Source of the DNA: Bacteroidales bacterium Bact_09
GTDB lineage: Bacteria > Bacteroidota > Bacteroidia > Bacteroidales > UBA932
Length of the DNA stretch: 35,968 nt
NCBI GenBank assembly: GCA_001603455.1
Contig: LUZA01000016.1
Span: 1-35,968 of the forward strand
Reading direction: 5' to 3'
This document shows, one piece after another, positions 10,119-29,781 of this stretch. The notes under the pieces were generated by a model. The model made no database searches. It saw nothing but the letters and a program-made list of their open reading frames with translations, and was not told the DNA's origin. The translations under genes and the position numbers were made by a program. Every line of letters starts with the position of its first letter. Position 1 is the stretch's first letter.

Positions 10119-10155
10119 TTAGTAAATTGCATACTTATGGAATAACGAAAATACG

Positions 10156-13361: not shown

Positions 13362-13362
13362 T

Positions 13363-14550
13363 ATGAAAAAGACACTCTGTTTGTACTTTCAGGTGCATCA
13401 GCCTTACAGGTTACGTCAATATCGTTTTTTTGACATAGGCAAAAACCATGATTATTTTGATGATTTTGCCAACAAGACCATCATGGCCCGGGTTGCCACA
13501 CGCTGTTACATACCAGCTAACCGTCTGATGCTTGAACTGATAAATAAATACGACGGGGCATTTAAAATAACTTATTCCATCAGCGGCATAGCCCTGGAAC
13601 AAATGGAACAATTCGCTCCCCAGGCGCTGGAATCCTTCCAGGAACTTGCCAAAACGGGACACGTGGAATTCCTGTCCGAGACATATTCGCATTCCCTGTC
13701 TTCGCTGATTTCACCCAGAAAGTTCAGAGACCAGATTAAAGTACATGTCAATGCTGTGGAAAAACATTTTGGTCAAAAACCCAAGGCTTTCCGGAATACC
13801 GAGCTGATTTACTCGGACACCATAGGGGAAATGGTCGCCGGGATGGGTTTTGCTACCATGCTGACAGAGGGGGCACGGCACATCCTGGGATGGAAAAGTC
13901 CCAATTACATTTATGTGAATGCACTGAATCCCAAATTGAAACTGCTGCTCAGAAATTTCAGGTTGAGTGACGATATTGCATTCCGCTTCTCCAACAAGAG
14001 CTGGGGGGACTGGCCCCTGACGGCAGAAAAATATGCGGGATGGATCGCGGGAGCCCTCGAAAAGGACGATATCGTGAATATCTTCATGGATTATGAAAGC
14101 TTTGGAGAACACCAGCCTGCCTCATCGGGTATCTTCGATTTTCTGAAAGCCATGCCAGGAATGATACTTAATCATACAAACCTGGAGATTATGACACCTT
14201 CCCAGGCCGCAGCCAAGCATCAGCCCATCGCGCCCCTAAATGTTCCATATGCCATATCCTGGGCAGATGAAGAAAGGGACATCAGCGCCTGGCTGGGCAA
14301 TGAGCTGCAACAGGAAGCCTTTAACAACCTGTACAAGATAGAAGATCTGGTAAGGGACAGTAACGATCCCGATCTGCAGAGGGATTTCCGGAGGTTGCAG
14401 GCCAGTGACCATTTTTACTATATGTGTACCAAATTCTTTTCGGACGGGGACGTACATAAATATTTCAATCCCTACGACACCCCGTACGAAGCATTTATCA
14501 ATTATATGAACGTGTTGAGCGACATTACGCTCCGCGCATCTAAAAAATAA
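13363..14550 (+). CDS. GH57 family alpha-glucan-active glycoside hydrolase
   Basis: A 395-residue protein of family GH57 (alpha-amylase, 4-alpha-glucanotransferase or branching activity). Conserved regions are YFQVHQPYRLR with HQP at 12-14, the nucleophile motif FRNTELIYSD with Glu147, and the acid/base motif FMDYESFGEH with Asp243. I chose the ATG at 13363, two bases after the upstream stop, because MKKTLCLYFQVHQP is the expected family N terminus. It probably trims or transfers maltooligosaccharides during glycogen turnover. The substrate is inferred from its neighbours. It is three bases from the GT3-GT35 fusion gene. Confidence 0.9.
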   Translation: MKKTLCLYFQVHQPYRLRQYRFFDIGKNHDYFDDFANKTIMARVATRCYIPANRLMLELINKYDGAFKITYSISGIALEQMEQFAPQALESFQELAKTGHVEFLSETYSHSLSSLISPRKFRDQIKVHVNAVEKHFGQKPKAFRNTELIYSDTIGEMVAGMGFATMLTEGARHILGWKSPNYIYVNALNPKLKLLLRNFRLSDDIAFRFSNKSWGDWPLTAEKYAGWIAGALEKDDIVNIFMDYESFGEHQPASSGIFDFLKAMPGMILNHTNLEIMTPSQAAAKHQPIAPLNVPYAISWADEERDISAWLGNELQQEAFNNLYKIEDLVRDSNDPDLQRDFRRLQASDHFYYMCTKFFSDGDVHKYFNPYDTPYEAFINYMNVLSDITLRASKK

Positions 14551-14552
14551 AT

Positions 14553-17500
14553 ATGAAGAGTGAACTGAATCATAGTCCCGATTATTTGTTTGAAGTGAGC
14601 TGGGAAGTCTGCAACAAGGTAGGAGGGATCCATACCGTAATTGCTACAAAAGCGTTGCATATGTCCAGGGATATGGAGAACAGGCATATCCTCATCGGAC
14701 CGGACGTTTGGAGAGAAACAAAGCAAAATCCCGAATTTCTGGAAGATCCGCGGTTGCTGCGTTCCTGGAGGGACCGTGCTGTACAGGAAGGATTGAGGAT
14801 AAGGGTGGGACGCTGGAACGTTCCGGGTAATCCTATTGCCGTACTGGTTGACTTCTCGTCCTATATATCGCGGAAAGACGAGATATTTACCGATCTGTGG
14901 AAAAAATTCATGCTGGATTCCATCAGCGGGCAGTGGGATTATATAGAACCGGCACTTTTCGGATATGCAACCGGGATCGTTATTGAAAGTTTTGTGCGCC
15001 ATAACCTGGCGCCTCATCATAAAAGTGTGGCTCAATTCCATGAATGGATGACAGGGACCGGACTCCTTTATTTAAAATCGCTCAGGATACCGGTTGCCAC
15101 CACATTTACCACCCATGCCACAGTCCTGGGGCGTTCCATAGCAGGGAATATGCTGCCCCTGTATGATAACCTGGAACTTTACAATCCGGCAGAAAAAGCC
15201 AGGGATTTCAATGTCATAGCCAAACACTCTCTGGAGAAAACGGCTGCTTATTATGCAGATGCCTTCACAACAGTGAGCGACATAACAGCCAGGGAATGTG
15301 CGCACTTTTTGGAAAAAAAAGTTGATATTGTTACGCCTAACGGGTTCGAAAACAGCATTACTCCCCCGGATGAAGAATTTGATAAAAAAAGATGGGAGGG
15401 AAGGAGTGCATTGCTTCTGACCGCATCCCGTATGTTACACAGGGAAGTCAATAAAAATGCTTTCCTTGTGGGGATAAGCGGTCGTTATGAGTTCAAGAAC
15501 AAAGGAATTGATGTGTTCCTGGAATCAATGGCCATACTTAATAGAGAGCGCGGTCAGGCAGACCGGCAGATACTTGCTTTTCTGATGGTACCTGCCAATC
15601 ACAAAGGACCCAGGAATGATTATGACGATCCCCTGACCACCCATTACCTGCACGACCCGGAATATGACCCGGTGCTCAACGTGATGCGCGAACAGGGCTT
15701 GTCCAATGCGGAAAAGAACAACGTGAACGTTTTTTTCATTCCCTGCTATTTAAACGGAGATGACGGACTGATAAATAAAACATATTACGAACTGCTTATA
15801 GGACTGGACCTGTCTGTGTTTCCTTCCTATTATGAACCATGGGGATACACACCGTTGGAAAGCCTGGCATTCCGGGTACCAACCATAACCACATCGTTGG
15901 CTGGTTTTGGCGCGTGGGTGGAGAAAACCTACAAATCACCCCATCCGGGCATTGAGATCGTCGTGCGTGGCGACAACAACCACACCGCAGTGGTGAACGA
16001 TGTGACATCGGTCATTCGCCGCATGAGTGCCTTATCTCCAGATGAAGCCGCAATGGTCAGGGACAATGCCCGTGATGTGTCTGCTATTGCCCTGTGGGAT
16101 AATCAGCTGAAATATTATAAAAAAGCTTATTCCGTAGCACTGGACAAGATTGTCGAGAATCTGGGCCGTTTTCCTCTCAGGAGGGAAGAATGCAGTACCG
16201 TTCACCGTGAATTGTTGCTATCTGCTCCTACCTGGTCACCTGTAACCATCCAGAAACAATTGCCACAGCGTCTTAATTTTTTGGAGGTATTGTCCAGAAA
16301 TCTCTGGTGGTCATGGAACCAGGATGCCAGAAGGCTTTTTTCAGGGATCGATCCCGATATGTGGAAACAGGTGGAAAAAAATCCCATATTATTGCTGGAC
16401 AAAATTCCGTACAAGAAATATAAAGCCCTGGAAAAGAACAAAGCGTTCCTGGAACAACTGGACAAGGTGGAAGCCCGTTTCAACGCTTACATGAAGGCAA
16501 GGGAAACATTAAACGGTCCGGCAATAGCCTATTTCAGCATGGAATACGGCCTGGACTGGACGCTGAAGATCTATTCCGGAGGTTTGGGCATACTAGCCGG
16601 AGATTATTTGAAAGAATCCTCCGATAAGGGCGTTCCCATAACCGGTATAGGATTGTTGTACCGTTACGGTTATTTTCGCCAGTTTCTCTCTGCCCAGGGA
16701 GATCAGGTAAGTGACCGCGAAGCAGTGGATTTTCAGAAGATCCCTGTGATTCCGGTACGTGACGGGAACGATAATTGGACAACCATCAGCATAGCGTTTC
16801 CGGGACGTAATGTTTATGCCCGTATCTGGAGGGTGGATGTGGGTCGGACTCCCCTTTACCTGCTGGACACCGATTTTGAAGATAACCTGCTCGAAGACCG
16901 CAGCATAACACACCAGTTATACGGCGGTGATTGGGAAAACAGACTTAAGCAGGAATTACTGCTGGGCGTGGGGGGGATCCGGGCGCTTCGTGCTTTGGGC
17001 ATCAATACCGATGTTTTCCACTGCAACGAAGGCCATGCGGCTTTCACGGGACTGGAAAGGATCAGGGAATATGTGTTCAATGATAACCTGTCTTTCGAAG
17101 AAGCCAGGGAAGTAGTGCGTGCCTCGTCGCTGTTCACCACCCACACTCCGGTACCTGCCGGTCACGATGCCTTTACCGAAGACATGCTTCGTCCCTATTT
17201 TTCGCATTATCCAGATAGGCTTAAAACGTCGTGGGATACCCTTATGGCGCTGGGAAAAACCGATGTATGCGATGTCCACGAGAAATTTTCGATGAGTTTT
17301 CTGGCTTCAAACCTGTCCCAGGAGATCAACGGTGTGAGCAAGCTGCACGGACAGGTGAGCCGCAAGATCCTCAATCCGCTGTGGCCCGGTTACCTGCCTC
17401 AGGAATCGCATGTGGATTACGTAACAAACGGGGTCCATTATCCCACATGGACTGCCACTGAATGGAAAGAGGTTCATTCCCGCATTTTTGGGGAAGATTT

Positions 17501-18764
17501 TAGCACCCATCATTACAACAAAGACTGTTTCATGGAGTTCCTCAAGGTTAGCGACAAGGAAGTGTGGCATATCCGCAACAGATTGCGCGGTAAGCTTATG
17601 GACAGAATCGTGACAGCCTTGTCCAGTACAGAGAATGCTCCTGAATTTTATTCTCCCCGGGATGTTGTCGCCATCCGGGGTGCTCTGAACAAGGATATAC
17701 TGACTATAGGTTTTGCCAGGCGCTTTGCCACCTATAAAAGGGCACACCTGCTTTTTGCCAGCCTGGACCGTCTGGATGCCCTGATTAATAATCCCGGACA
17801 TCCCGTTCAGTTCCTATTTGCAGGAAAGGCACATCCTCACGATAAAGCCGGTCAGGATTTGATCAGGCGGATAGTGGAAGTGTCGCGCATGCCGCGTTTC
17901 GTAGGCAAAATCCTCTTCCTGCCAAACTATAATATGGAAATGGCCAAACGTCTTGTTCAAGGTGTGGATGTGTGGATGAATACGCCTACCAGACCATTGG
18001 AAGCTTCCGGAACGAGCGGGGAAAAAGCGGCCATGAACGGAGTAATGCATTTTAGTGTGCTGGATGGCTGGTGGGTAGAAGGATATCGCAAGGGTGCCGG
18101 ATGGGCACTGCCTGAGAAACGGACTTATGAAAACCAGGATTATCAGAATGAACTCGATGCCGCCACCATATATAATATGCTGGAACATGAGATCGTACCG
18201 CTGTTCTACAAGAGGAACCACGAAGGGATCCCTGTGGAATGGGTGCAGCACATCAAGAATACAGTGGCATACGTGGCAGGCAATTTTACGACCAACCGCA
18301 TGATGGAGGATTACCAGCAGAAGTTTTACCAGCCATTGCAGGAGAGACATGCTAAAATGATTGAAAATAATTATGCATTGGCCAAGGAAATGGCATTCTG
18401 GAAAAAAAGAATGGAAAGGGAATGGAGCTCCCTGGAAGTATTATCCTATACGCATCCCAATGATAGCAAGGACATACTTACCTTGGGCAGTGAAAGTGAA
18501 TCTAGGGTCAGATTGTACCTGGGAGCCCTTTCTGCCAAAGATATTGGGGTAGAGATGGTCATCACCAGGCGTAGCAAGGACGGCGAGATCATCATAGACG
18601 AGATTGTACCCTTTACCCTGGAACATGTTTCCAACGGAGAAGCCACCTATGTTTGCAAATTGGTACCACAGACGGCAGGTTCGTATTACATTGCATCCAG
18701 GATATATGCGAATAATCTAAAAATGTTCCACAGACAGGATTTTGCTTTAGTAAAATGGTTATAG
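14553..18764 (+). CDS. Fused glycogen synthase (GT3) - glycogen/alpha-glucan phosphorylase (GT35)
   Basis: A 1403-residue protein with two complete enzymes. Residues about 1-550 are a eukaryote-like GT3 glycogen synthase: FEVSWEVCNKVGGIHTVIAT near 13-32, FHEWMTGTGLLYLK, and SYYEPWGYTPLESL as the C-terminal donor site. From about 570 a DUF3417-type segment (NFLEVLSRNLWWSWNQDARR) opens an alpha-glucan phosphorylase with the PLP-attachment motif EASGTSGEKAAMNG, Lys1158 being the expected Schiff-base lysine. The last 110 residues look like a small beta-sandwich. Synthase adds glucose from UDP-glucose; phosphorylase releases glucose 1-phosphate. Such fusions exist in Bacteroidota. I saw no frameshift or internal stop at the junction. 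It overlaps ribF by 10 bases. Confidence 0.93.
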   Translation: MKSELNHSPDYLFEVSWEVCNKVGGIHTVIATKALHMSRDMENRHILIGPDVWRETKQNPEFLEDPRLLRSWRDRAVQEGLRIRVGRWNVPGNPIAVLVDFSSYISRKDEIFTDLWKKFMLDSISGQWDYIEPALFGYATGIVIESFVRHNLAPHHKSVAQFHEWMTGTGLLYLKSLRIPVATTFTTHATVLGRSIAGNMLPLYDNLELYNPAEKARDFNVIAKHSLEKTAAYYADAFTTVSDITARECAHFLEKKVDIVTPNGFENSITPPDEEFDKKRWEGRSALLLTASRMLHREVNKNAFLVGISGRYEFKNKGIDVFLESMAILNRERGQADRQILAFLMVPANHKGPRNDYDDPLTTHYLHDPEYDPVLNVMREQGLSNAEKNNVNVFFIPCYLNGDDGLINKTYYELLIGLDLSVFPSYYEPWGYTPLESLAFRVPTITTSLAGFGAWVEKTYKSPHPGIEIVVRGDNNHTAVVNDVTSVIRRMSALSPDEAAMVRDNARDVSAIALWDNQLKYYKKAYSVALDKIVENLGRFPLRREECSTVHRELLLSAPTWSPVTIQKQLPQRLNFLEVLSRNLWWSWNQDARRLFSGIDPDMWKQVEKNPILLLDKIPYKKYKALEKNKAFLEQLDKVEARFNAYMKARETLNGPAIAYFSMEYGLDWTLKIYSGGLGILAGDYLKESSDKGVPITGIGLLYRYGYFRQFLSAQGDQVSDREAVDFQKIPVIPVRDGNDNWTTISIAFPGRNVYARIWRVDVGRTPLYLLDTDFEDNLLEDRSITHQLYGGDWENRLKQELLLGVGGIRALRALGINTDVFHCNEGHAAFTGLERIREYVFNDNLSFEEAREVVRASSLFTTHTPVPAGHDAFTEDMLRPYFSHYPDRLKTSWDTLMALGKTDVCDVHEKFSMSFLASNLSQEINGVSKLHGQVSRKILNPLWPGYLPQESHVDYVTNGVHYPTWTATEWKEVHSRIFGEDFSTHHYNKDCFMEFLKVSDKEVWHIRNRLRGKLMDRIVTALSSTENAPEFYSPRDVVAIRGALNKDILTIGFARRFATYKRAHLLFASLDRLDALINNPGHPVQFLFAGKAHPHDKAGQDLIRRIVEVSRMPRFVGKILFLPNYNMEMAKRLVQGVDVWMNTPTRPLEASGTSGEKAAMNGVMHFSVLDGWWVEGYRKGAGWALPEKRTYENQDYQNELDAATIYNMLEHEIVPLFYKRNHEGIPVEWVQHIKNTVAYVAGNFTTNRMMEDYQQKFYQPLQERHAKMIENNYALAKEMAFWKKRMEREWSSLEVLSYTHPNDSKDILTLGSESESRVRLYLGALSAKDIGVEMVITRRSKDGEIIIDEIVPFTLEHVSNGEATYVCKLVPQTAGSYYIASRIYANNLKMFHRQDFALVKWL

Positions 18765-20567: not shown

Positions 20568-20963
20568 ATGGCAACAATATTCTCACGGATCGTTACGGGC
20601 GAGATTCCTTCCTACAAGGTAGCGGAGGATGATCGTTTTTATGCCTTTTTGGATATCAATCCCCGTAAGCCGGGGCACACCCTGGTGATCCCCAAACAGG
20701 AAGTGGATTATATTTTCGATCTTGATCCTGTGCAGCTGGGAGACCTTTTCCGCTTTGCCCAGCGTGTGGCTCGTGCTGTCAGGGAGGCCGTCCCCTGCCA
20801 AAGAGTAGGAGTGGGGGTCCTGGGAATGGAAGTGCCCCATGCCCATGTACATCTGATCCCTATGGATACGGAAGGGGACATGAACCTGAGCCGGCCGGTA
20901 TGCAGGATCCCGGCAGAAGAAATGCAGCGTATTTGCCGTTCGATTGCACAAAAATTCGAATAA
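20568..20963 (+). CDS. HIT family nucleotide-binding protein
   Basis: A 131-residue histidine-triad protein, probably a purine nucleoside phosphoramidase or related nucleotidyl hydrolase. It begins MATIFSRIVTGEIPSYKVAE and carries PGHTLVIPK near residues 35-43 and the triad HAHVHLIP at 91-98. I chose the ATG at 20568, just after the greA stop, because it fits the family start; the upstream frame lies inside greA. It is probably cotranscribed with greA. The physiological substrate cannot be predicted. Confidence 0.92.
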   Translation: MATIFSRIVTGEIPSYKVAEDDRFYAFLDINPRKPGHTLVIPKQEVDYIFDLDPVQLGDLFRFAQRVARAVREAVPCQRVGVGVLGMEVPHAHVHLIPMDTEGDMNLSRPVCRIPAEEMQRICRSIAQKFE

Positions 20964-20968
20964 TACCT

Positions 20969-22117
20969 ATGAAATACTACAAACCTTTAATTGTGGCTGC
21001 CTTTCTGTGCGTCACATTGTTTTGTTCATGCAAAAAAAATAAAATTGTTAGAATAACAGGTCATGTCAGCGATTTGACCGAAAATAATTTTCTTGTGTTC
21101 AAGCGTCTTGATTTTACAGCAGAAACGCTCTTGGACACACTGCATACCGATGAGAACGGCAATTTCCGGTACAGTCTGGAAAAAGGAACAGAACAACCCG
21201 GTTACTATTATTTATATGCAGGTGAAAAAAAGATTGCTTCGCTCATTCTCAAAAAAGGCGACAGGGTGAAAATACACGCCACGGCAGACGGAAAAATGCT
21301 GAAAGTGGAAGGCTCGGACGATTCTGAACTCTTACGGCAGGTCAACGACAGATTGCATCAGACAGTCAGAAAGTTTGATTCGCTCTATGTTTTATATGAA
21401 AAGGCCACAGGCAGGGAGCAGAAGGCGCTCAGCCTTGAACTGGGGTCCCTATTTATTAAGTACAAACAGGAAGCTATCCGTTTCCTTTATGCGCATCCCC
21501 GCTCGTTTGTCAATACTTCTGTGGTGTTTCATGCATTCCCGGGACAATTTTATGTATTTTCCGATTCCAAGGATGCCCCTTTGTTACACCGCGTATACGA
21601 TTCGCTTTATGTGAATTACCCGCTTTCCCCGTATGTGATGGCCATCAGGAACCGATACGAAAGTATGGAAAAAACCCTGCAGATGGAGCAGTTGTTATCT
21701 CAGGCCGATGTCTCTGATTTTCCGGACATATGTCTACCCGGACTGGATGGACAGACTACCTGCCTGTCATCATTGAAAGGTAAGGTTGTAATACTGTCTT
21801 ACTGGCATTCGGCCAATGTAGAGATGAGATTGGACAACCGTGAATTGGCCGGAATTTACGATACATATGCCCCGCGCGGTCTGGAGATCTTTCAGGTAGC
21901 ACTTGATATAGACAAAACGGCTTGGGCAAAGGCTGTCAGGGATCAGTCACTGCCCTGGATCAGTGTATGCGATGGTCTTGGTATAGGCTCACCATCGGTT
22001 GTGTCATACAACGTAGAAACGATCCCTGTTTTTTTCATCATCACCAGACAAGGGGATATCGTTGTCCGGTCAGGCGATGTGAATGAAGTGATCCGGCAGG
22101 TCAAAACTCTTTTTTAG
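20969..22117 (+). CDS. Thioredoxin-fold (TlpA-like) lipoprotein lacking the CxxC motif
   Basis: A 382-residue protein. I chose the ATG at 20969, which gives a signal peptide and a probable lipobox ending at Cys21 (TLFCSC); upstream residues belong to the HIT gene frame. Residues about 28-120 match the DUF4369-type N-terminal domain (ITGHVSDLTENNFLVFKRLD). Residues about 250-382 match the TlpA/AhpC thioredoxin fold: LPGLDGQTTCLSSLKGKVVI, then a cis-proline loop ETIPVFFI (Pro353). Where the redox CxxC should follow SYW, it reads WHSANVEM, so both active-site cysteines are missing. It is unlikely to be an ordinary disulfide reductase. It overlaps the convergent tsaB by 17 bases. Confidence 0.85.
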   Translation: MKYYKPLIVAAFLCVTLFCSCKKNKIVRITGHVSDLTENNFLVFKRLDFTAETLLDTLHTDENGNFRYSLEKGTEQPGYYYLYAGEKKIASLILKKGDRVKIHATADGKMLKVEGSDDSELLRQVNDRLHQTVRKFDSLYVLYEKATGREQKALSLELGSLFIKYKQEAIRFLYAHPRSFVNTSVVFHAFPGQFYVFSDSKDAPLLHRVYDSLYVNYPLSPYVMAIRNRYESMEKTLQMEQLLSQADVSDFPDICLPGLDGQTTCLSSLKGKVVILSYWHSANVEMRLDNRELAGIYDTYAPRGLEIFQVALDIDKTAWAKAVRDQSLPWISVCDGLGIGSPSVVSYNVETIPVFFIITRQGDIVVRSGDVNEVIRQVKTLF

Positions 22118-22811
22118 GACAGATAGCTACAAATTCCTTCAGGTAAAAGGGTATATAATAGGCAACGTCCTCAAATTTTTTTTCTGTATATGCCTTCATA
22201 GCTGCCTGTGCCATGCCGTCGGCATGTGATAAGACCTCTGCAAACAGGGCATTGGGATGCACTATCGTATTCCGGCACTTGGGAGCTCCGTTCCCGGTAA
22301 AGATCACCTTACCCATGACCAATTCTTCCATAAAGCTTTCACCGGTGATATTCATTGCCTGAACAGATCCTTCCAGGAAAGCCATCCTTCCCAGAGATCC
22401 TTCTTCCCTGACAGAATACGGGGCGGTATAAACTTCCATTCTCCGGGCGTCGATCATGGGATAAATACGCAGGGGATCTGCCGTAGTGTTACTATTGAGG
22501 TATAATTGTGCGATCACCTCCAGTGAACTGACATGTATAAGTGGTATGGAAGCCCCAAAACAAAGACCTTTGGCAGTGGATACACCTACGCGAAGTCCGG
22601 TATAGGATCCCGGGCCTCCACTTACGGCAATGGCCGCTAAATCTTTTACCTTCATACCGCATTCCCGGAGAATCTGGTCAATGAAAACAGCCAGCAACGA
22701 TGCATGCGCTTTTGCCTCTGATGTCTGACGACGGGCTATGATGTGCATTCCCTCTGCCAGCGATACGGAGCAAACCGTCGTGCTAGTTTCAATCAACAGA
22801 AATCGTGGCAC
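22101..22811 (-). CDS. tsaB: tRNA threonylcarbamoyladenosine biosynthesis protein TsaB
   Basis: A 236-residue ASKHA-fold protein that pairs with TsaD (and TsaE) to make t6A at position 37 of ANN-decoding tRNAs. Visible blocks are the N-terminal phosphate-1 region IETSTTVCSVSL and the family signature SGGPGSYTGLRVGVSTAKGL near residues 64-83, then a variable C-terminal half. Its start lies 23 bases inside the upstream adaptor gene, so it is last in the minus-strand run that includes the exporter and peptide genes. It is an essential housekeeping gene, so the transport genes may have joined an existing operon. Confidence 0.93.
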   Translation of the reverse strand: MPRFLLIETSTTVCSVSLAEGMHIIARRQTSEAKAHASLLAVFIDQILRECGMKVKDLAAIAVSGGPGSYTGLRVGVSTAKGLCFGASIPLIHVSSLEVIAQLYLNSNTTADPLRIYPMIDARRMEVYTAPYSVREEGSLGRMAFLEGSVQAMNITGESFMEELVMGKVIFTGNGAPKCRNTIVHPNALFAEVLSHADGMAQAAMKAYTEKKFEDVAYYIPFYLKEFVAICPKKEF

Positions 22812-24078
22812 GGACTTGATTTTCTTTTGTTTCCTTATTTATTTCCTGTTCTGTCTTTGGCTCCACTTTAGTGCTGTTGAGCAATGTGCGTGAAATGGCC
22901 GAGTAAGGACCTGTCACCACTTTGTCTTCCTGTGTGAGTCCTTCACTGATCTCTATATGGATATGGTCCTGCAGGCCAGATCTTACCCTTACGGCTTCTA
23001 CCGTGTTGTCCGGACGCACCACAAAGACCTGTTCCACCAGTTCGTTGGGTCCCAGCTGTTGTCTAAGGCTGTCTGACAAGAGTTCGGTTCGTGTGGTGAT
23101 GCATTGGATGGGAATAGCAATGACGTTGTGTCTGGTTTCTGTCTGGATAGATACCGAAGCCGACATGCCGGGCCTGAAGGGGGTGGCATAACCCACGGTC
23201 ACCAGATCGCTGTAAGACTGGGGTAGGATAAATACCCTCACTTCAAAATTAGTGACCTGCTCGAGCGAGGAACCAATATTCTTGGCCGAATTGGCTATTT
23301 GTGTCACTATACCTGTAAACTTGCGTCCGGGATAGGCGTCCACCTCGACCATGGCCGTATCGAGTTGTTTGATGCGGACAATATCGTTCTCGTTCACATC
23401 AACCAGCACTTCCATTTCCTCAAAGTTGGCAATGCGTAGCATTTCGGTTCCGGCCATTTGGCTGGTTCCCACCACGCGTTCCCCACGTTCCACGGCGAGT
23501 TTGGATACGATACCGTTCATGGGCGAGAAGATGGTGGTCTTGGCAAGACTTTCTTCTGCCTCGGCAAGCGCCGCTTCTGAGCTCTGGACATGGAATTTGG
23601 CGGCATTCAGCTGTTCCCTGGCAATGGCGTATTCAGAGGATGAGGCCTCGAACTCGGCCTGGGAGATAGCTCCCTGCTGGTGAAGAGATACGTTCCTGTT
23701 GTAGGAAAGTTCCACCTGCGTGAATTGGGCTTCCTGCTGCGCCAGTTGTGCCCTAGCCTGGTTAAGGGCGGCTTTCATCCTGTCCCGGGCCGATATGTAC
23801 TGATCCTGCTTGATTTGCAGCAATACCTGCCCCGCTTTCACATGGTCGCCTTCGGCCACGTTCAGCACCACGATCTCGCCCGAAACATCGGGACTTATCT
23901 TGACTTCGGTTACGGGCTGTATCTTTCCGTTGGCAGGAATGATCTCGGTAATGTTCTTCACAACCGGGTTTGCCACGGTAACTGGTGTACCCTTGCGCGA
24001 ACGGCTTCTTCCGGCGATGATCAGAATGACAATAAGTACTACTGCACTTATAATGATCCACAATATAGATTTCTTCAT
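22789..24078 (-). CDS. Periplasmic adaptor (membrane fusion) protein, MacA/HlyD type
   Basis: A 429-residue inner-membrane-anchored adaptor. A single membrane segment (about residues 4-22) is followed by a lipoyl-like half motif (ISPDVSGEIVVLNVAEGDHV), a long coiled-coil hairpin (about 95-195, with NQARAQLAQQEAQFTQVE), the second lipoyl half (FSPMNGIVSKLAVERGERVV) and beta-barrel domains. Such proteins bridge an inner-membrane pump and a TolC-type channel. A TolC-like gene lies immediately upstream, and the only transporter in the run is the C39-peptidase ABC exporter. No MacB permease is present, so pairing with the exporter is plausible but inferred. Confidence 0.88.
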   Translation of the reverse strand: MKKSILWIIISAVVLIVILIIAGRSRSRKGTPVTVANPVVKNITEIIPANGKIQPVTEVKISPDVSGEIVVLNVAEGDHVKAGQVLLQIKQDQYISARDRMKAALNQARAQLAQQEAQFTQVELSYNRNVSLHQQGAISQAEFEASSSEYAIAREQLNAAKFHVQSSEAALAEAEESLAKTTIFSPMNGIVSKLAVERGERVVGTSQMAGTEMLRIANFEEMEVLVDVNENDIVRIKQLDTAMVEVDAYPGRKFTGIVTQIANSAKNIGSSLEQVTNFEVRVFILPQSYSDLVTVGYATPFRPGMSASVSIQTETRHNVIAIPIQCITTRTELLSDSLRQQLGPNELVEQVFVVRPDNTVEAVRVRSGLQDHIHIEISEGLTQEDKVVTGPYSAISRTLLNSTKVEPKTEQEINKETKENQVRATISVD

Positions 24079-24093
24079 AGGGAGTGATAATTA

Positions 24094-25482
24094 TTATAAC
24101 GTAATGGGAATGCCTTTATAGAAATCCAGGATCTTGAGCTTGAATACGTGTTCATATTTTGCCTGGATGTAATTGCTCTGTGCTTTGAATAAATTTGTTT
24201 TAGATACAATGTAGTCGGTCCCGTTAAGCATCCCTATGTCGAATTTTTGCTGTACATAACGGAATGACTCCTCCATAGCCGTTACGCTCCTTTCAGTAGC
24301 CTGGATACGGAGCCAGGTTGAGGTAGCGTCGTTGGCAGCCTGTTGTACTTCCTTCATGAGCATATGCTGTGCATTCTTCATTTCGAGTTCTGCCATCTCG
24401 AGGCCAAGCCTGGCGTTTTTCACATTGGTGTTGACCTGCCACCGGCTGAATAGGGGAATGGTCATGGACAATCCTATGGACGGATTGTTGTTCTTCTTCA
24501 TTTGATCCCAGAATCCTGCAGAAGAATTACCGAAAAGATCATCTATGGAACCGGTGCCGTTTTCTTCGGGATCGGGATCTTTGTCTTTTTTCTTGTTGGC
24601 ATCTGAAAAAAAGGATGAATAGCCAAAAGAAAGGGAAAGCCTGGGGTAGCGACCGCCTTGGGCAATGGCCAGTTCGTGTCTGCGTTGTTCCAGATTATAT
24701 TCGGTCTTTTTAATCTGAGGAAGGCCCAGCGAAGTGTAATAGAGATCCTCTACAGAAATGGGCTCCATCTCCTGAAGGTCCCCGAGCCCTGGCTCTATGA
24801 TTTCAAAATCCTCTTCTACGGGAAGGTCCAGCAATTGTTTCAGGTTCAGGTAGAATGTCCGCTGGTTGTTCTGCGCTTCGACCACCTGCAGCTCTTCTGT
24901 TGCCAGTTGGGATTCAATCTCTAACAGAGCACTCAGGGGCTGGCTGCCTGCCTCAACCAGTTTTCGTGTACGGGAACATTGTTCAGTCACGCTTTCGCGG
25001 CTTTGCCGGGTAGCTTCCAGTATCTCTCCGGCCAGCAGAACGTTCAGATAGCTGCGCGTGATCTCTATAGAAATCTCGTTACGTAATTTTTGTACTTCTT
25101 CGATGGCAATTTTCAATCTGGATTGCTCCTGCTTTACCGTATTGAGTTTCTGAAAACCCGTGAACAGGTCCATGTCGGCATAGATTCCCACGCCAGTATT
25201 GGTGCTTCTTACATGGTTGAGGATCGTAAGGGTTGACAGGTCAACGGACTGTCCCCAGTTTACATTCTCGCTTACCCGTGCACTGACCGAAGGGGCAAAA
25301 GCCATTTTTGACTGAAAATGGGTGTTCTCCGACTGGGCCACTCCCAGTTCCTGTTGTTTGATCGTAAGGTTGTTTTCCCAGGCATACCGGATGCATTCTT
25401 CCAGGGACCATTTTTTTTGCGCCTGAAGTGACAGGGGCAGAATCAGAACAAGGAACCACAATAGACAGGAACGTTTTTTCAT
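24094..25482 (-). CDS. TolC family outer-membrane efflux protein
   Basis: A 462-residue protein with a signal peptide (CLLWFLVLILPLSLQAQ, cleavage before KKW) and two outer-membrane-efflux repeats. The first starts SLEECIRYAWENNLTIKQQE; the second is in the C-terminal half (KNARLGLEMAELEMKNAQHM). Like other Bacteroidota members it ends with a helix reading VSKTNLFKAQSNYIQAKYEH. It would form the trimeric outer-membrane channel. The adaptor gene starts 15 bases downstream and the CPBP gene ends five bases upstream, so all three are probably cotranscribed. Confidence 0.92.
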   Translation of the reverse strand: MKKRSCLLWFLVLILPLSLQAQKKWSLEECIRYAWENNLTIKQQELGVAQSENTHFQSKMAFAPSVSARVSENVNWGQSVDLSTLTILNHVRSTNTGVGIYADMDLFTGFQKLNTVKQEQSRLKIAIEEVQKLRNEISIEITRSYLNVLLAGEILEATRQSRESVTEQCSRTRKLVEAGSQPLSALLEIESQLATEELQVVEAQNNQRTFYLNLKQLLDLPVEEDFEIIEPGLGDLQEMEPISVEDLYYTSLGLPQIKKTEYNLEQRRHELAIAQGGRYPRLSLSFGYSSFFSDANKKKDKDPDPEENGTGSIDDLFGNSSAGFWDQMKKNNNPSIGLSMTIPLFSRWQVNTNVKNARLGLEMAELEMKNAQHMLMKEVQQAANDATSTWLRIQATERSVTAMEESFRYVQQKFDIGMLNGTDYIVSKTNLFKAQSNYIQAKYEHVFKLKILDFYKGIPITL

Positions 25483-25487
25483 ATTCT

Positions 25488-26207
25488 TTAAGTATATCTT
25501 GCAAATTTACTTTTATTTATAGAATATGCAACAACGATGCCTAAAAGCGAAAGCAGGCAGAGCAAAACGTTAAGTCCGGCACGCGGAGCGGAGTACAAAG
25601 CAGTAACTTCCTGCAAAGTAAACTGAAAAGTGTAGATCACAATATTGAAAACCCAGTGAACGGCCACGTTCAGGGAAATATCCCCTCTTTTCAGAAAGAG
25701 ATATCCCAGAAGTGCTCCAAGAAAAAACCGTTGCACCAATAGCGATACCGATTCCGGCCTGTGACAAAGAGAGAACAACAGAGCCGGCAGTAGGACCGTG
25801 AGCCAGCCAGGAATATTGACCTTACGCATCCTGAAAATGAGAAATTCTCTGAAAAGCAATTCCTCGCAGCATGAAATCCAGAAAAAAGACCAGAAACAGT
25901 TGATCAGATACGTTACCAGGTCAGCATTAAGAAAAGCCTTTCCCGTAAGGCTTGCTGTCAGCGCTGCCACAGGGACGAGCATGATCCCTGTTGTCAGAAA
26001 AACACGTTTCCAGGGCATGGCAGGCAATTGTGTCATTTTTTTACGTTTTCCGCACAGATGGATAAGAACCATTGCCAAGGCCCCGGCGGAATTAATTATC
26101 AGCAGATCTGAGAACTTTGAGTAAAAAAGGGCAGATACCAATAAAGTGGGTACGCTAAAAATGACATACAGCCATACGGGATAGGCTATAAACAGGTACT
26201 TACGCAT
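25488..26207 (-). CDS. CPBP family intramembrane glutamic protease; candidate peptide immunity protein
   Basis: A 239-residue protein with about seven hydrophobic segments and the CPBP (Abi/CAAX-protease-related) motifs: EELLFR at 115-120, FSLCH with His149, and HWVFN with His184 and Asn188. All expected catalytic residues are present. CPBP proteins of Gram-positive bacteria such as PlnI and SkkI give self-immunity to class II bacteriocins. The start overlaps the end of the second precursor peptide by eight bases, the arrangement expected of an immunity gene. Alternative roles are peptide maturation or an unrelated membrane protease; the immunity role is inferred from position. Confidence 0.85.
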   Translation of the reverse strand: MRKYLFIAYPVWLYVIFSVPTLLVSALFYSKFSDLLIINSAGALAMVLIHLCGKRKKMTQLPAMPWKRVFLTTGIMLVPVAALTASLTGKAFLNADLVTYLINCFWSFFWISCCEELLFREFLIFRMRKVNIPGWLTVLLPALLFSLCHRPESVSLLVQRFFLGALLGYLFLKRGDISLNVAVHWVFNIVIYTFQFTLQEVTALYSAPRAGLNVLLCLLSLLGIVVAYSINKSKFARYT

Positions 26208-26421
26208 TAGCCGGAATCGGCTTTTTGATCAGTTTACCGATCAGGTTGTAACCCAGATCGTATAATGCACGGAAAGCCTGTCCCAGGATCTCTCCGAATT
26301 TATATGCCAATTCGGCATCAAACTTAGACATGCCGCCCGTTATGGCACAGCAGGCAGTGTCGCCCAGCAACACAAAGCCAGTCATAGAATCATTGCAGTT
26401 CAATCGTCTCATTTGTTCCAT
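26200..26421 (-). CDS. Double-glycine leader precursor peptide B (putative two-peptide bacteriocin component)
   Basis: A 73-residue precursor. The leader (residues 1-30) ends GFVLLGDTACCAITGG. The predicted mature peptide (31-73) is 43 residues: it begins MSKFDAELAYKFGEILGQAF, contains a GxxxG motif (GEILG), and ends LIGKLIKKPIPANA. I count a net charge of about +2 and no cysteine. The pattern suggests an amphipathic helix with a basic, proline-containing tail. Ten of the last 16 leader residues are identical to peptide A. The start is either 26421 (13-base overlap with peptide A) or the ATG at 26412, which overlaps the upstream stop as ATGA. The CPBP start lies in its final codons. I recognise no described family. 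Confidence 0.8.
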   Translation of the reverse strand: MEQMRRLNCNDSMTGFVLLGDTACCAITGGMSKFDAELAYKFGEILGQAFRALYDLGYNLIGKLIKKPIPANA

Positions 26422-26633
26422 CCCGCTTTAAATCCATCAATAAAACTGTCAACGTTTTTGGCTAGCATGGCAACCAGGATTCCTGCCTTACCCATTTTTG
26501 ACGCCAGTCCGCTCAGGAGATCCTGAATTATTTCACCCAGGACGCCATACTCGGAATCTCCTCCGGTAATAGCACACTGGAGTGATACATCCAGGGTGAC
26601 GAACCCAAAATTCCGCATCACATAATCACTCAT
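26409..26633 (-). CDS. Double-glycine leader precursor peptide A (putative two-peptide bacteriocin component)
   Basis: A 74-residue precursor. The leader (residues 1-25, or 20 if the second ATG at 26618 is used) ends GFVTLDVSLQCAITGG. The predicted mature peptide (26-74) is 49 residues: DSEYGVLGEIIQDLLSGLAS, then a hydrophobic stretch KAGILVAMLAKN, and a C-terminal GxxxG (DGFKAGWNK). I count a net charge near -1 and no cysteine. It lies directly downstream of the C39-peptidase exporter gene and overlaps peptide B. The GG cleavage site, small size, glycine-rich helix-like core and exporter context all fit a class II bacteriocin-like peptide. The family is not recognised. Confidence 0.8.
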   Translation of the reverse strand: MSDYVMRNFGFVTLDVSLQCAITGGDSEYGVLGEIIQDLLSGLASKMGKAGILVAMLAKNVDSFIDGFKAGWNK

Positions 26634-26670
26634 AATCTTTAGGTTTTATTTAATATTTCTCACAGATCAG

Positions 26671-26698
26671 GCGCGTGAGATTCCGCCGGCAAGCGCGC
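26671..26698 (-). other. GC-rich possible hairpin between exporter and peptide genes
   Basis: The 72 bases between the exporter stop and peptide A contain GCGCG (26671-26675) and CGCGC (26694-26698), with the self-complementary GCCGGC inside the loop. The arms are only five bases long. It could reduce read-through or stabilise a peptide mRNA. No TAnnTTTG box was seen in this gap, so the peptides probably depend on the upstream promoter. Confidence 0.25.
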
Positions 26699-26705
26699 GT
26701 TTGCT

Positions 26706-28904
26706 TTATAATCCCTGCTGCCTGCACCAGGCAGCGTATTGTTTGTTCTTTCGTACGAGTTCCCCGTGTGGCCCTTTACCTTTTATCTTACCGTTTTCTA
26801 GCACCAGTATGGTTTCTGCAATGGAGAGGGTAGACATCCTATGACCTATAACAATGATCCCGGTACCCAGTCGGCTCCAGCTTTGTAAAGCATTGAGCAC
26901 ATATGTTTCCGAGGTGCTGTCCAGCGACGAGGTAGCCTCGTCCAAAATGATCCATGAAGGATTCCGGTAAGCTGTTCGGGCCAGGGCAATGCGTTGGCGC
27001 TGTCCGCCTGACAGCTGGACGCCCTGTTCTCCTATAGGTGTAAGGATCCCTCTGGGCAGAGACGCCAGGAACTGGTCAAGTCCCAGTTCCTGGCACAACG
27101 ATGCCACACGATCCATATCGGGCGAAGGATCTCCCAGGGCAATATTCTCTAGGATGTTTCCCTCAAACAGGCCTGCTTTCTGCGGAACGATTCCTATATA
27201 CCTGCGCCAGGCCTTCAGGGGGATGTCGCCGGCTGCTATTCCGCCCAGGCGAACGACTCCTTTATCCGGTTCGTACATACGCATGATCAGGGATCCGAGG
27301 GTACTTTTACCCGAGCCGCTTTCCCCTGCCAGGCCCGTAATAGTCCCTGCCGGAAAGATGCAGCTGAAATCCTCAAACAGTGGCATTCTCCCCGGATAGT
27401 GGAATGATAATCTTTCCAGGGCAATGTCTCCGTATTGAACGCTGTCTGTATTCGTTCCCTGGTCATCACCGCCGGGATCCTCTTCTGTTTCCAGCTCCAT
27501 GATCTCGAAAAGCCTTTCCGTGGCGATGCGCGCATCGCGGTATTTCTGGCTGAAGGAGATGATCTCTGCCACCGGAACTGAGAAATAGGCAGTGAGGGCA
27601 TAAAAAGTAAATAATTCTCCCAGACTCAACATATTACGCGTAACAAATGTGGCCCCCAACCACAGGATTGCCAGGCCCATTCCCCGGGTAATAGCGTCTC
27701 CCCAGGTAGTTGCCCGCAATTGGTTCATACCGCCCTTCCAGGCATGACTTACATACGTATCGAATTGTTCCCGGACCTTTTCTATCATTTGTTCCTGGGC
27801 TGTACAATATTTAATCTGGGCAACGTCCCGCAGGGAGTCCACCAAGTGTGTTTCCAGTCCGGCCTGTGCAATCGTGATCTGGCGCTGCGTATCCTTGTTG
27901 CGCCTGTCAAACAGGTAATAGACCATGGTATACAGCGGCAGCGAGGCTATACAGATCCAGCTCAGTACCCTATTAAAAAGAAACATGACCACGAACGAGA
28001 AAAGCAGGGTGAAAACGCTCAGCGCGATATTCAGCAGTCCGTTACCCAGGAAAGCACTGACCTTGAAAGCATCGTTGATTCGTGCCACCAATTCACCCGA
28101 CTGTCTCTGGTCAAAGAACCGTTGCGGCAGGTACATAATATGCCTGTAAAAGCCCCCGGCCAGCCTCATGGCTGTTCTGAGACCGGTGCGCAACAGGAAC
28201 CGGATTCTGAAAATATTGAGTGCCATGGCACATAGTGCAATGTAAACCATCGCAAATCCCAGTGTACGCAGTACATCTCCGGCCCCATGGGGAATGACCC
28301 TGTCTGCGATTTGTTGTAAAAACAGGGCCGAGGCGATCCCGGTCAGGGTATAAAGGAACGAGGCGCCCAGAGCGGCTAGGAACTGTCGCTTTTGCCCTTG
28401 CATCAGGACCCGGGTCCTGTAAAGAAATCCGGGAATGTATTTTCCTTTTTTAAATCCTTCCCCCGGGCTCAGGGTCACCACTACTCCGGTCCATTCCTTC
28501 ATAATGTCAGCCACCTGCCTGCGGTGCATCCTGCCGTCCTCCGGATCCATGATGCGGCATTTCGCTGTTCTTCGGAACCGCGGCGAAGTCATTCCGTAAA
28601 AGACCACAAAATGGGTGTATCCGTTCTGTTTGAGCATATGAAAAACGGCAGGGTATGGGAGGCCCGGGAACAGATTCTGCTCTGTGACCCTTGCATCGGG
28701 ACTGCGACGGTAAGCCCTGGCTTCCAGATGCAGGGCACGGGCCCCTTCCCGGATCCCCTGTACGGAAATGCCGTGCGTCTGCGTACCGCTCCATTGCCGG
28801 ATCTGCTCCAGAGGAAAGCGCAATCCGAACCAGGCGGCGGCAGACGCCAGGCATGCCGCTCCGCAATCACTAACGTGGTGTTGTCTGATGCGTATTTTTT
28901 TCAT
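26706..28904 (-). CDS. Peptidase-containing ABC exporter (C39 peptidase, PCAT) for double-glycine peptides
   Basis: A 732-residue half-transporter. The N-terminal C39 cysteine peptidase has DCGAACL with Cys14, GYTHFVVFYG with His98, and MDPEDG with Asp120: a complete catalytic triad. The membrane domain spans about 175-455. The ATPase domain carries Walker A GESGSGKST (527-535), Q-loop Gln575, signature LSGGQ (631-635), Walker B WIILDE (651-656) and H-loop His688. The family removes leaders after Gly-Gly and exports the cores; two such substrates are encoded immediately downstream. I chose the ATG at 28904 because MKKIRIRQHHVSDCG is the normal C39 start; a frame extension to 28979 is arginine-rich and overlaps the upstream gene. 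Confidence 0.94.
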   Translation of the reverse strand: MKKIRIRQHHVSDCGAACLASAAAWFGLRFPLEQIRQWSGTQTHGISVQGIREGARALHLEARAYRRSPDARVTEQNLFPGLPYPAVFHMLKQNGYTHFVVFYGMTSPRFRRTAKCRIMDPEDGRMHRRQVADIMKEWTGVVVTLSPGEGFKKGKYIPGFLYRTRVLMQGQKRQFLAALGASFLYTLTGIASALFLQQIADRVIPHGAGDVLRTLGFAMVYIALCAMALNIFRIRFLLRTGLRTAMRLAGGFYRHIMYLPQRFFDQRQSGELVARINDAFKVSAFLGNGLLNIALSVFTLLFSFVVMFLFNRVLSWICIASLPLYTMVYYLFDRRNKDTQRQITIAQAGLETHLVDSLRDVAQIKYCTAQEQMIEKVREQFDTYVSHAWKGGMNQLRATTWGDAITRGMGLAILWLGATFVTRNMLSLGELFTFYALTAYFSVPVAEIISFSQKYRDARIATERLFEIMELETEEDPGGDDQGTNTDSVQYGDIALERLSFHYPGRMPLFEDFSCIFPAGTITGLAGESGSGKSTLGSLIMRMYEPDKGVVRLGGIAAGDIPLKAWRRYIGIVPQKAGLFEGNILENIALGDPSPDMDRVASLCQELGLDQFLASLPRGILTPIGEQGVQLSGGQRQRIALARTAYRNPSWIILDEATSSLDSTSETYVLNALQSWSRLGTGIIVIGHRMSTLSIAETILVLENGKIKGKGPHGELVRKNKQYAAWCRQQGL

Positions 28905-29199
28905 TGTAATATCCGTAAAAAAACGGAGCTGTCTTTCTTTTCTCCTCCTTTCTGTTTTCCGAAAACAGAGCCCGCACATCCCCGGTGGAAACGGTATGCA
29001 GATCTTTCTCCCCGGACAGCTCCGCGGAAATAAATAACAAGAAGACGACCATTCCTCCCAGGGTAGCCAGTACGATCATTATAAAAAGAATGACAAACCC
29101 CCTATTCACAAACCTTTTATTCCTTCGTCCGGGAAGGGCATCATCACCGGCCGAAGCACGTATCAGAGCTGGGTAGGAAGGTTTACATATGGTCTTCAT
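28870..29199 (-). CDS. Small single-pass membrane protein at head of exporter operon, unknown function
   Basis: A 109-residue protein: about 35 N-terminal residues that are basic overall (RRNKRFVNRG), one strong membrane segment (FVILFIMIVLATLGGMVVFL, about 37-56), and a charged C-terminal tail. No family is recognised. The ATG at 29199 sits four bases after a full TAnnTTTG box, and the 3' end overlaps the exporter start by 35 bases; both support a real coding sequence at the head of the operon. It has no double-glycine leader, so it is not an obvious exporter substrate. An accessory, regulatory or second immunity role is possible but unsupported. Confidence 0.55.
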   Translation of the reverse strand: MKTICKPSYPALIRASAGDDALPGRRNKRFVNRGFVILFIMIVLATLGGMVVFLLFISAELSGEKDLHTVSTGDVRALFSENRKEEKRKTAPFFYGYYNEKNTHQTTPR

Positions 29200-29277: not shown

Positions 29278-29781
29278 TCAATCCAGAAAAGGCAGGTAGG
29301 GCAGCAGAATGGAGGAAAAAGTCTCGATCACCCTGTATAGGCGTGATCCGGCAAAAGTTTCTTTGGGTAAAAACCGGACGTAGGCATCTATCAAGTTTAA
29401 CACGTACATGATGATGACTACAAGAATATTCCACTTGATCCATCCGAAAATGGCACCCGTCAGCCGGTTTAGCCATCCGAGCAGGACAATTTTCATCAGT
29501 TTATCCAAAAGATGTCCCAGGATCAGGACAATGATCAGCACAACAATGAAAGTCAACACAAAAGCCACAACACGCAGACCTTCACCGTTCCAGCCGAACC
29601 ACTCAACAATGCGGTCTGCAGCAAAACTGGTGAAATGATAAGAACAATAACAGGCAAGAATCAGGGCCAGGATGCCGAAAACCTGCTTGATGAATCCTTT
29701 GGTCAACCCCTCGATTATGGCCACGATCCATATAATCAGGAGAATAATATCTACGTAGTTGAGAGAAAGTTTTGCCAACAT
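29278..29781 (-). CDS. CvpA family membrane protein
   Basis: A 167-residue protein with four hydrophobic segments (about residues 8-25, 31-52, 68-92 and 108-130). It carries the CvpA pattern near the first helix (DIILLIIWIVAIIEGLTKGF) and GWLNRLTGAIFGWIKW before the last. CvpA was named for its requirement in colicin V production in E. coli; its homologues are broadly conserved envelope proteins. It lies next to a double-glycine peptide export operon (78 bases apart, same strand), but the family is so widespread that this may be chance. Its start codon lies in a divergent promoter region shared with ileS. Confidence 0.85.
   Translation of the reverse strand: MLAKLSLNYVDIILLIIWIVAIIEGLTKGFIKQVFGILALILACYCSYHFTSFAADRIVEWFGWNGEGLRVVAFVLTFIVVLIIVLILGHLLDKLMKIVLLGWLNRLTGAIFGWIKWNILVVIIMYVLNLIDAYVRFLPKETFAGSRLYRVIETFSSILLPYLPFLD

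Follow-up and report, generated by a model that had tools for sequence, protein, structure and literature searches.

A candidate two-peptide secretion locus with Gly-Gly leaders in one family of Bacteroidales

What does a member of the Bacteroidales secrete, and to what end, from a locus in which an exporter carrying its own C39 peptidase is followed by two overlapping small genes and a membrane protein of the CPBP family? The locus lies in a stretch of 35,968 nucleotides of Bacteroidales bacterium Bact_09 (positions 1 to 35,968 of contig LUZA01000016.1), which as a whole is called the window here. An earlier note, made from the letters of the window, had read positions 25488-29199 as a putative bacteriocin locus of the two-peptide (class IIb) type. 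We name the two small genes with Gly-Gly (GG) leaders PepA and PepB; all genes of the cassette are on the minus strand. We slightly favor the reading that the locus makes a class IIb-like two-peptide product, unmodified, and exports it with the hardware of class II microcins. Gene content, linkage, conserved motifs, selection and mainly vertical descent were observed directly. The interpretation given in the earlier note mostly holds and is partly supported, while the conserved, mainly vertical character of the system was not foreseen in it.

The peptide pair and its exporter

All genes named in the earlier note were recovered in the window, on the minus strand, by reading of open reading frames (ORFs) and with Pfam (Table 1). 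The span it gave takes in these genes, but position 29199 is the start of a gene for a small protein with one transmembrane (TM) segment which it did not mention, and the TolC-family channel and the periplasmic adaptor just outside were missed. The PepA and PepB genes overlap by 13 nucleotides and PepB overlaps the CPBP gene, as had been claimed, by 8 nucleotides; the gaps from the CPBP gene to TolC and from TolC to the adaptor are 5 and 15 nucleotides. Because of these overlaps and small gaps the peptide pair probably belongs to a single operon.

The catalytic triad described as intact in the exporter is indeed so: C14, H98 and D120, together with Q8, are identical in 12/12 sequences from the window's genus and invariant in an alignment of ten sequences across genera. 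This exporter is the sole PF03412 (C39) match in the 1.93 Mb assembly, and its nearest NCBIfam models (TIGR03796, TIGR01193 and TIGR01846) were all under their cut-offs. The adaptor scored 161.3 bits with TIGR01730 (cut-off 94.9) and 113 bits with the MacA model, whose cut-off of 342 was not reached; as an HlyD-type protein (TIGR01843) it was also below cut-off. Judged by these families, exporter, TolC and adaptor are predicted to make up a full tripartite export system, for which the two peptides are candidate substrates, and the class II microcin set of GG-leader pre-peptide, peptidase-containing ABC transporter (PCAT), membrane-fusion protein and TolC is all present in the run. From what is known of the exporter family, processing and export of PepA and PepB are very probable.

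Within the genus the locus is closely maintained. The exporter was found in all 12 other genomes searched (62-84% identity) and PepA in 13/13 genus genomes. The order ileS/cvpA, small TM protein, exporter, PepA, PepB, CPBP and TolC is the same in 11/12 genomes, with adaptor and tsaB also in order in the 10 whose contig extends that far; in the twelfth (G011) the two halves of the locus are on two contigs (L042 and L195). The ratio of nonsynonymous to synonymous substitution rates (dN/dS) in seven pairs of genus members was 0.00-0.17 for PepA, 0.07-0.20 for PepB, 0.08-0.15 for the exporter and 0.14-0.23 for CPBP, and the weakest constraint among the genes measured was that of the small TM protein (0.33-0.42, five pairs available). 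In 6/7 pairs dN was lower in the PepB core than in its leader. Mean identity within the genus falls in a similar order: PepA 71.2%, exporter 69.8%, PepB 62.0%, CPBP 57.4% and small TM protein 48.4%. Purifying selection on PepA and PepB is thus strong and keeps them about as constant as the exporter, while the putative immunity genes drift faster. The low dN/dS indicates that PepA and PepB are not chance ORFs.

Both leaders in the window (25 and 30 residues) end in CAITGG, as had been pointed out, and this part of the claim stands for the window. Elsewhere the motif is not conserved, and as a literal diagnostic it is ruled out, for PepA leaders vary (e.g. VITGG, AISGG) and some PepB leaders end in TAG or IAG. 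PepA cores have 28-51 residues with a block like F..GF..GW close to the end, PepB cores 30-48 residues with G.G.G or GY.[IVL]G within the helix. GxxxG is present in 48/49 unique PepA cores; among the 49 unique PepB cores [GA]xxxG is present in all and strict GxxxG in 42. With one core per genus, PepA had GxxxG in 11/11 (3.1 +/- 1.4 after shuffling; 0/5000 shuffles as high), PepB had [GA]xxxG in 11/11 (5.2 +/- 1.6; 2/5000) and strict GxxxG in 9/11 (2.5 +/- 1.3; 0/5000). Since shuffling ignores shared descent, the test speaks for retention of the motif and not for its repeated origin. G67 and G71 are invariant in the PepA alignment. The cores are amphipathic, with a mean maximal helical moment of 0.61 for PepA (0.38 shuffled) and 0.56 for PepB (0.36 shuffled), 0/200 shuffles being as high, and their lengths fit the roughly 25-50 residues of class IIb. 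An AlphaFold2 model of PepB has one core helix, residues 33-65, which spans GEILG (ten-residue blocks from residue 31 at a predicted local distance difference test score, pLDDT, of 70, 85 and 74); the PepA model is helical and of low confidence. Neither window core holds a cysteine, and elsewhere in the UBA932-lineage family 10/49 PepB cores do.

No named bacteriocin or GG-precursor family of NCBIfam or Pfam matched the window peptides over cut-off. When 17 members of the PepA alignment (A2) and 16 of the PepB alignment (A3) were compared with such families, the matches listed were weak (best E 0.0043). The sole NCBIfam family listed for members of both sets was lactococcin G-beta/enterocin 1071B, with 2/17 PepA members (best E 0.019) and 1/16 PepB members (E 0.009); scores of this size are chance-like and the match is a weak hint.

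Table 1. Coordinates of the cassette and its neighbors in the window
Feature	Position	Strand	Remarks
Small single-TM protein, 109 aa	28870..29199	-	Lies 5' of the exporter gene and overlaps it; may have an immunity or accessory role
C39-peptidase ABC exporter (PCAT), 732 aa	26706..28904	-	Peptidase_C39, ABC_membrane and ABC_tran over Pfam cut-off
PepA precursor, 74 aa	26409..26633	-	Leader 26633-26559 ending GG, core 26558-26412
GFKAG (GxxxG) motif, near C-terminus of PepA core	26421..26435	-	
PepB precursor, 73 aa	26200..26421	-	Leader 26421-26332 ending GG, core 26331-26203
GEILG (GxxxG) motif, PepB core helix	26281..26295	-	
CPBP-family (PF02517) membrane protein, 239 aa	25488..26207	-	E=1.3e-14; candidate immunity or peptide-processing factor
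TolC-family outer membrane channel	24094..25482	-	PF02321 OEP, E=4.1e-50
Membrane-fusion (periplasmic adaptor) protein, RND-adaptor/MacA-like	22789..24078	-	TIGR01730 over cut-off
cvpA, conserved upstream neighbor, not claimed for the system	29278..29781	-	PF02674 'Colicin V production protein', E=9.7e-29
tsaB, conserved downstream housekeeping neighbor, last gene of the run	22101..22811	-	PF00814, E=7.2e-29

Distribution, site and descent

The family of the window was surveyed in 299 genomes of 25 genera with profiles from alignments A2 and A3. At E <= 0.05 PepA matched 166/299 genomes and PepB 170/299 (64/144 and 67/144 of the genomes at least 90% complete), each in 14/25 genera. The pair was read in the DNA behind the exporter in 11/25 genera, a few of the matched genera being single weak matches. 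For 139/150 listed PepA places a PepB match comes next downstream in the same orientation, at a median distance of 32 nucleotides, and for the remaining 11 no PepB was among the matches listed. Among 295 genomes sampled evenly from the order there were two PepA matches at E <= 0.001, both from the same family as the window, and among 296 genomes of the phylum there were three, namely the window's own and two from another order or family of the class. Pair-bearing loci from named organisms include those of Candidatus Cacconaster merdequi (L090) and Candidatus Coprenecus merdigallinarum (L093), whose ileS genes are placed beside genera g16 and g6, respectively. NCBI taxonomy has Coprenecus as Rikenellaceae incertae sedis and Cacconaster as Bacteroidales incertae sedis; we take both to be members of the family called UBA932 in GTDB.

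Arrangement was counted in 51 distinct loci with a readable PepA (L092 and L196 are one contig, the near-identical L069 and L192 are both kept, and L042 gives no PepA as its contig ends within the exporter). The exporter is directly upstream of PepA in 50/51, the exception (L195) starting at a contig end just before PepA; occurrence of the peptides without any C39 exporter, which the earlier note had set against its own interpretation, was thus not what we found. PepB is directly downstream of PepA in 49/51, and L059 and L100 were counted as lacking it since their longest ORF starts early, PepB being there by eye. Downstream of the peptide genes TolC is found in 47/51, the adaptor in 46/51 and tsaB in 49/51 loci, and cvpA is directly before the exporter in 44/51. 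Loci from other genera have the same arrangement of exporter, PepA-like and PepB-like genes and usually TolC, adaptor and tsaB, beside cvpA and ileS. The proposal of a class IIb-like GG-leader pair with its own C39 exporter is therefore borne out by conserved pairing, order and exporter linkage and by GxxxG in both cores.

Patristic distances of exporter and ileS, in the 48 loci with both genes, are correlated (Mantel r = 0.736, 0/1000 permutations as high), and the two trees have 29/45 splits in common. Descent of the cassette is mainly, not wholly, vertical; it is an old system, not a mobile cassette. Exporters of this type do occur on plasmids (1258 records at E <= 1e-60, with 35-36% identity among the eight matches listed), but PepA had no match in plasmid or phage collections at E <= 0.01, and this together with the fixed site speaks against mobile carriage.

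cvpA has the same neighborhood in part also where the cassette is absent. PepA and PepB were not found around cvpA in 15 genomes picked as pair-less, 11 from the family and four from other families. In pair-less loci of the family cvpA is beside TolC in L163, L164 and L171, with the adaptor too in L164 and L171, while in pair-less L165, L168, L169 and L170 it is beside tsaB; the remaining stretches are short or otherwise arranged. These neighborhoods suggest that gain or loss of the cassette, as one unit, took place between cvpA and tolC. They also raise a side question, compatible with every reading of the peptides, of whether TolC and adaptor are an older efflux unit with the cassette merely placed in front and using other channels. 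The pair-less L164 and L171 are in accordance with this, as are the cassette loci L062, L066 and L196, which have no TolC or adaptor match at the site. On the other side, the genes form a co-directional run in 46-47/51 loci, the gaps in the window are very short, and such exporters need TolC and adaptor, for which reason we consider an independent efflux unit somewhat unlikely.

In genus g18 (L047 in G029 and L048 in G064) cvpA is followed by an HlyD-like gene and another C39 exporter. L048 (485-5379) has GG-leader peptides and a PF02517 gene too, which makes it a different cassette in the same neighborhood.

Candidates for immunity

The CPBP protein had been proposed as the immunity factor, and this part of the earlier interpretation needs to be narrowed. 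In the genus its motifs are well kept (EExxxR in 13/13, FxxxH in 13/13 and HxxxN in 12/13 sequences), and by tblastn with the window protein CPBP is behind the pair in 13/13 genus loci and in 0/38 distinct loci elsewhere in the family, of which L093 is uninformative as its contig ends just behind PepB. In 13 listed loci of other pair-bearing genera no large ORF was found between PepB and the next gene, aside from L048 of g18, whose own PF02517 gene (1.6e-06) is in a different arrangement. A role of CPBP as the family-wide immunity gene is thus ruled out.

Further from the family the picture is different. A profile that includes distant pairs (A4) matched 26/395 phylum genomes at E <= 0.02, the window's own included, mostly weakly and in several cases with the leader only. 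Of the matches with E no higher than 0.0014, 21 were at loci outside the family, and 19 of these loci were read (L227 and L228 were left out); two, L198 and L199 (= L200 and L201), had been used to build A4 and are not independent finds. At least two GG-leader ORFs in a row are present in 16/19 (not in L204, L210 and L213), and a PF02517 protein over cut-off follows within about 1.5 kb downstream in 7/19 (L200, L201, L202, L203, L208, L211 and L226). An eighth candidate, in L215, had no Pfam match, and in Sunxiuqinia (L077) the pair is followed by one weak, below cut-off, and one clear PF02517 protein. The 16 genomes tested have 1-7 PF02517 genes each, and by our estimate, for genomes of 3-5.6 Mb, the chance of finding one behind a given pair is well under 1%. 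In G872 3/4 such genes are behind its two pairs, in G763 2/4. PF02517 genes behind remote pairs are therefore far above chance, and a functional link of CPBP with two-peptide GG pairs in several Bacteroidota lineages, although not an obligatory one, appears credible from these gene neighborhoods.

Outside the family, two PepA/PepB-like pairs lie about 2 kb apart in L201/L226 (G872, contig C12) and in L202/L225 (G807, contig C9). In L206 (G836) and L209 (G892) about four different genes for GG-leader peptides follow one another, and in L206 an HlyD-like gene comes after them (by eye). Adjoining GG-leader ORFs near C39 exporters were also seen in L072, L074, L075 and L078 (Pedobacter, Tenacibaculum and Allomuricauda), which suggests that paired precursors are common in Bacteroidota.

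The second candidate is the small TM protein upstream of the exporter, for which full or partial tblastn matches were obtained in 12/12 genus loci and no Pfam match. Small hydrophobic ORFs of 46-72 residues occupy its position in 16/31 judgeable loci of other genera; with such a patchy ORF, one universal small TM immunity gene is not established. Between cvpA and exporter one-TM ORFs are found in L059, L067, L068, L070, L090, L093, L100 and others, possibly divergent counterparts of the window gene, and several of them share an MLP or LLP stretch ahead of the TM helix.

Weapon or signal, and relation to known systems

Class IIb bacteriocins, of which lactococcin G and plantaricin EF/JK are the type, resemble our locus in adjacent GG-leader genes, a C39 exporter, short amphipathic cores, GxxxG in both peptides and, in the window's genus, a membrane protein beside the pair. 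The differences on the host side are the Gram-negative producer, the outer-membrane channel and adaptor in the run and the fixed site under purifying selection; on the peptide side they are the absence of a sequence match above chance, a mostly near-neutral charge and no uniform immunity gene. To our knowledge two-peptide GxxxG bacteriocins are essentially a Gram-positive theme.

If the class IIb-like reading is right, PepA and PepB would be made together from overlapping genes, each precursor would be cut by the C39 domain of the exporter after the GG (or AG) site, and the cores would be released through the channel formed by ABC exporter, adaptor and TolC. Once outside, the two amphipathic helices may pair through contacts of their GxxxG faces and become inserted in the envelope of a related cell, the target. 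Protecting the producer, or aiding maturation, would in the window's genus be the task of the CPBP protein whose gene overlaps PepB; in other genera the small one-TM protein may protect, or there may be no dedicated immunity. Cleavage and export are proposed on grounds of the exporter family and helix pairing on the analogy with class IIb, by which joint action via GxxxG helices is probable. On antagonism as the main role we are evenly balanced.

Several findings weigh against a bacteriocin of this kind. A bacteriocin engaged in an arms race would not usually be under such strong purifying selection or keep to one chromosomal site. Core charge is between -2 and +2 in 39/49 PepA and 33/49 PepB cores, while class IIb peptides are typically cationic. 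Single PepB members match the pheromone families VP1 (E 0.011) and ComC (E 0.039), equally weakly as the bacteriocin family. Confidence in the AlphaFold2 models of the precursors is low (mean pLDDT 52.5 and 59.2) except in the middle of the PepB helix. Sequence searches of the PDB gave no match to a solved bacteriocin; the chains returned, all at E 0.05 or worse, were unrelated ones or came from designed helical proteins. Finally, neither CPBP, confined to one genus, nor the patchy small TM ORF is an immunity gene common to the family. This last point is not decisive, because bacteroidetocins too have been reported without immunity genes (PMC6671954).

The conserved, mainly vertical character of the cassette leaves signalling open. 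We find it unlikely, but take it as the main and a serious rival of the weapon reading, that the locus encodes a conserved two-peptide signal, i.e. a pheromone or kin-recognition pair with an unlinked receptor in the producer's own kind, CPBP processing or clearing the peptide. The fixed site and the agreement with the ileS tree, peptide dN/dS as low as that of the exporter, the lack of a family-wide immunity gene and a genus PepA more conserved than CPBP or the small TM protein are all what such a signal would leave behind. It is opposed by the strong divergence of the cores between genera and by the gene content of the stretch between cvpA and tsaB, both included, in which no kinase or regulator was seen; moreover, a conserved GxxxG peptide pair is more typical of two-peptide pore formers. 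A broader and only slightly less doubtful form of this idea is an ancient, mainly vertically inherited two-peptide secreted factor of one Bacteroidales family, maintained at a single chromosomal site by purifying selection, which acts on the producer's own kind as a pheromone, in recognition of kin or by modulating the envelope. Its hardware would be bacteriocin-like, and CPBP proteases would have been recruited recurrently across Bacteroidota for processing or protection.

It is improbable that the cores assemble on the outer membrane of the producer as a surface-retained, contact-dependent toxin like CdzC/CdzD of Caulobacter, which is likewise a Gram-negative, type-I-secreted pair with glycine-zipper motifs (small-xxx-small motifs are present in both PepA and PepB cores) and for which its authors note some genetic similarity to class IIb, since CdzC/D are reported to have terminal regions resembling RTX secretion signals (PMC5380434), while here N-terminal GG leaders with a C39 exporter are present, by which identity with Cdz is rejected. 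The Cdz system also has a dedicated 3-TM immunity protein, CdzI.

As regards the hardware of the favored class IIb-like product, GG leader, PCAT, membrane-fusion protein and TolC are four of the five parts given for class II microcins such as MccV/colicin V in PMC10233263. The system differs from them in its two peptides, its RND/MacA-type adaptor, an immunity gene that is only a candidate and its occurrence in Bacteroidota instead of Enterobacterales. In the literature consulted, bacteroidetocins (Coyne et al. 2019, PMC6671954) are the class II bacteriocins that experiments have established in Bacteroidales. They share with our locus the host order, the GG leader, the C39 ABC exporter and the lack of a clear immunity gene, and are reported to have at least two cysteines and leaders of 15-16 residues, together with a TM protein and, in most loci, a thiol oxidoreductase. 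The window pair is cysteine-free, has longer leaders and consists of two peptides, so its identity as a bacteroidetocin was rejected. In a predicted cluster of Bacteroides sp. 2_1_56FAA, noted in 2015, a peptide gene precedes a PF02517 gene, and a C39 exporter and two secretion proteins of the hemolysin type are also encoded (PMC4573289); IIBacFinder has produced bulk predictions of class II bacteriocins for Bacteroidota (preview article PMC12648078), which may include PepA/PepB peptides; in the accessible parts of both articles no two-peptide, GxxxG or family-wide system is described. Among the matches listed in a search of the open-access literature, as judged by titles and starts of abstracts, no two-peptide GG system in Bacteroidales was described either.

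If the proposed reading holds, the pair with its Gram-negative exporter would be a secreted antagonism or signalling system of the lineage's own, spread over many genera of a gut-associated Bacteroidales family. Two defined cores are available to synthesise and test, and with the CPBP genes that recur behind pairs in other Bacteroidota, the long-standing proposal that CPBP confers immunity can be put to a direct test in a new phylum.

No thiol oxidoreductase is encoded within the run. A DUF4369/thioredoxin-like protein lies just past its end on the opposite strand (20900-22117, +), convergent with tsaB. Further away, at 8136-18764 (+), there is a glucan-metabolism-like gene run, the genes of which were judged by translation only, apart from a 1403-residue fusion of a glycogen synthase part (PF05693) with a carbohydrate phosphorylase part (PF00343).

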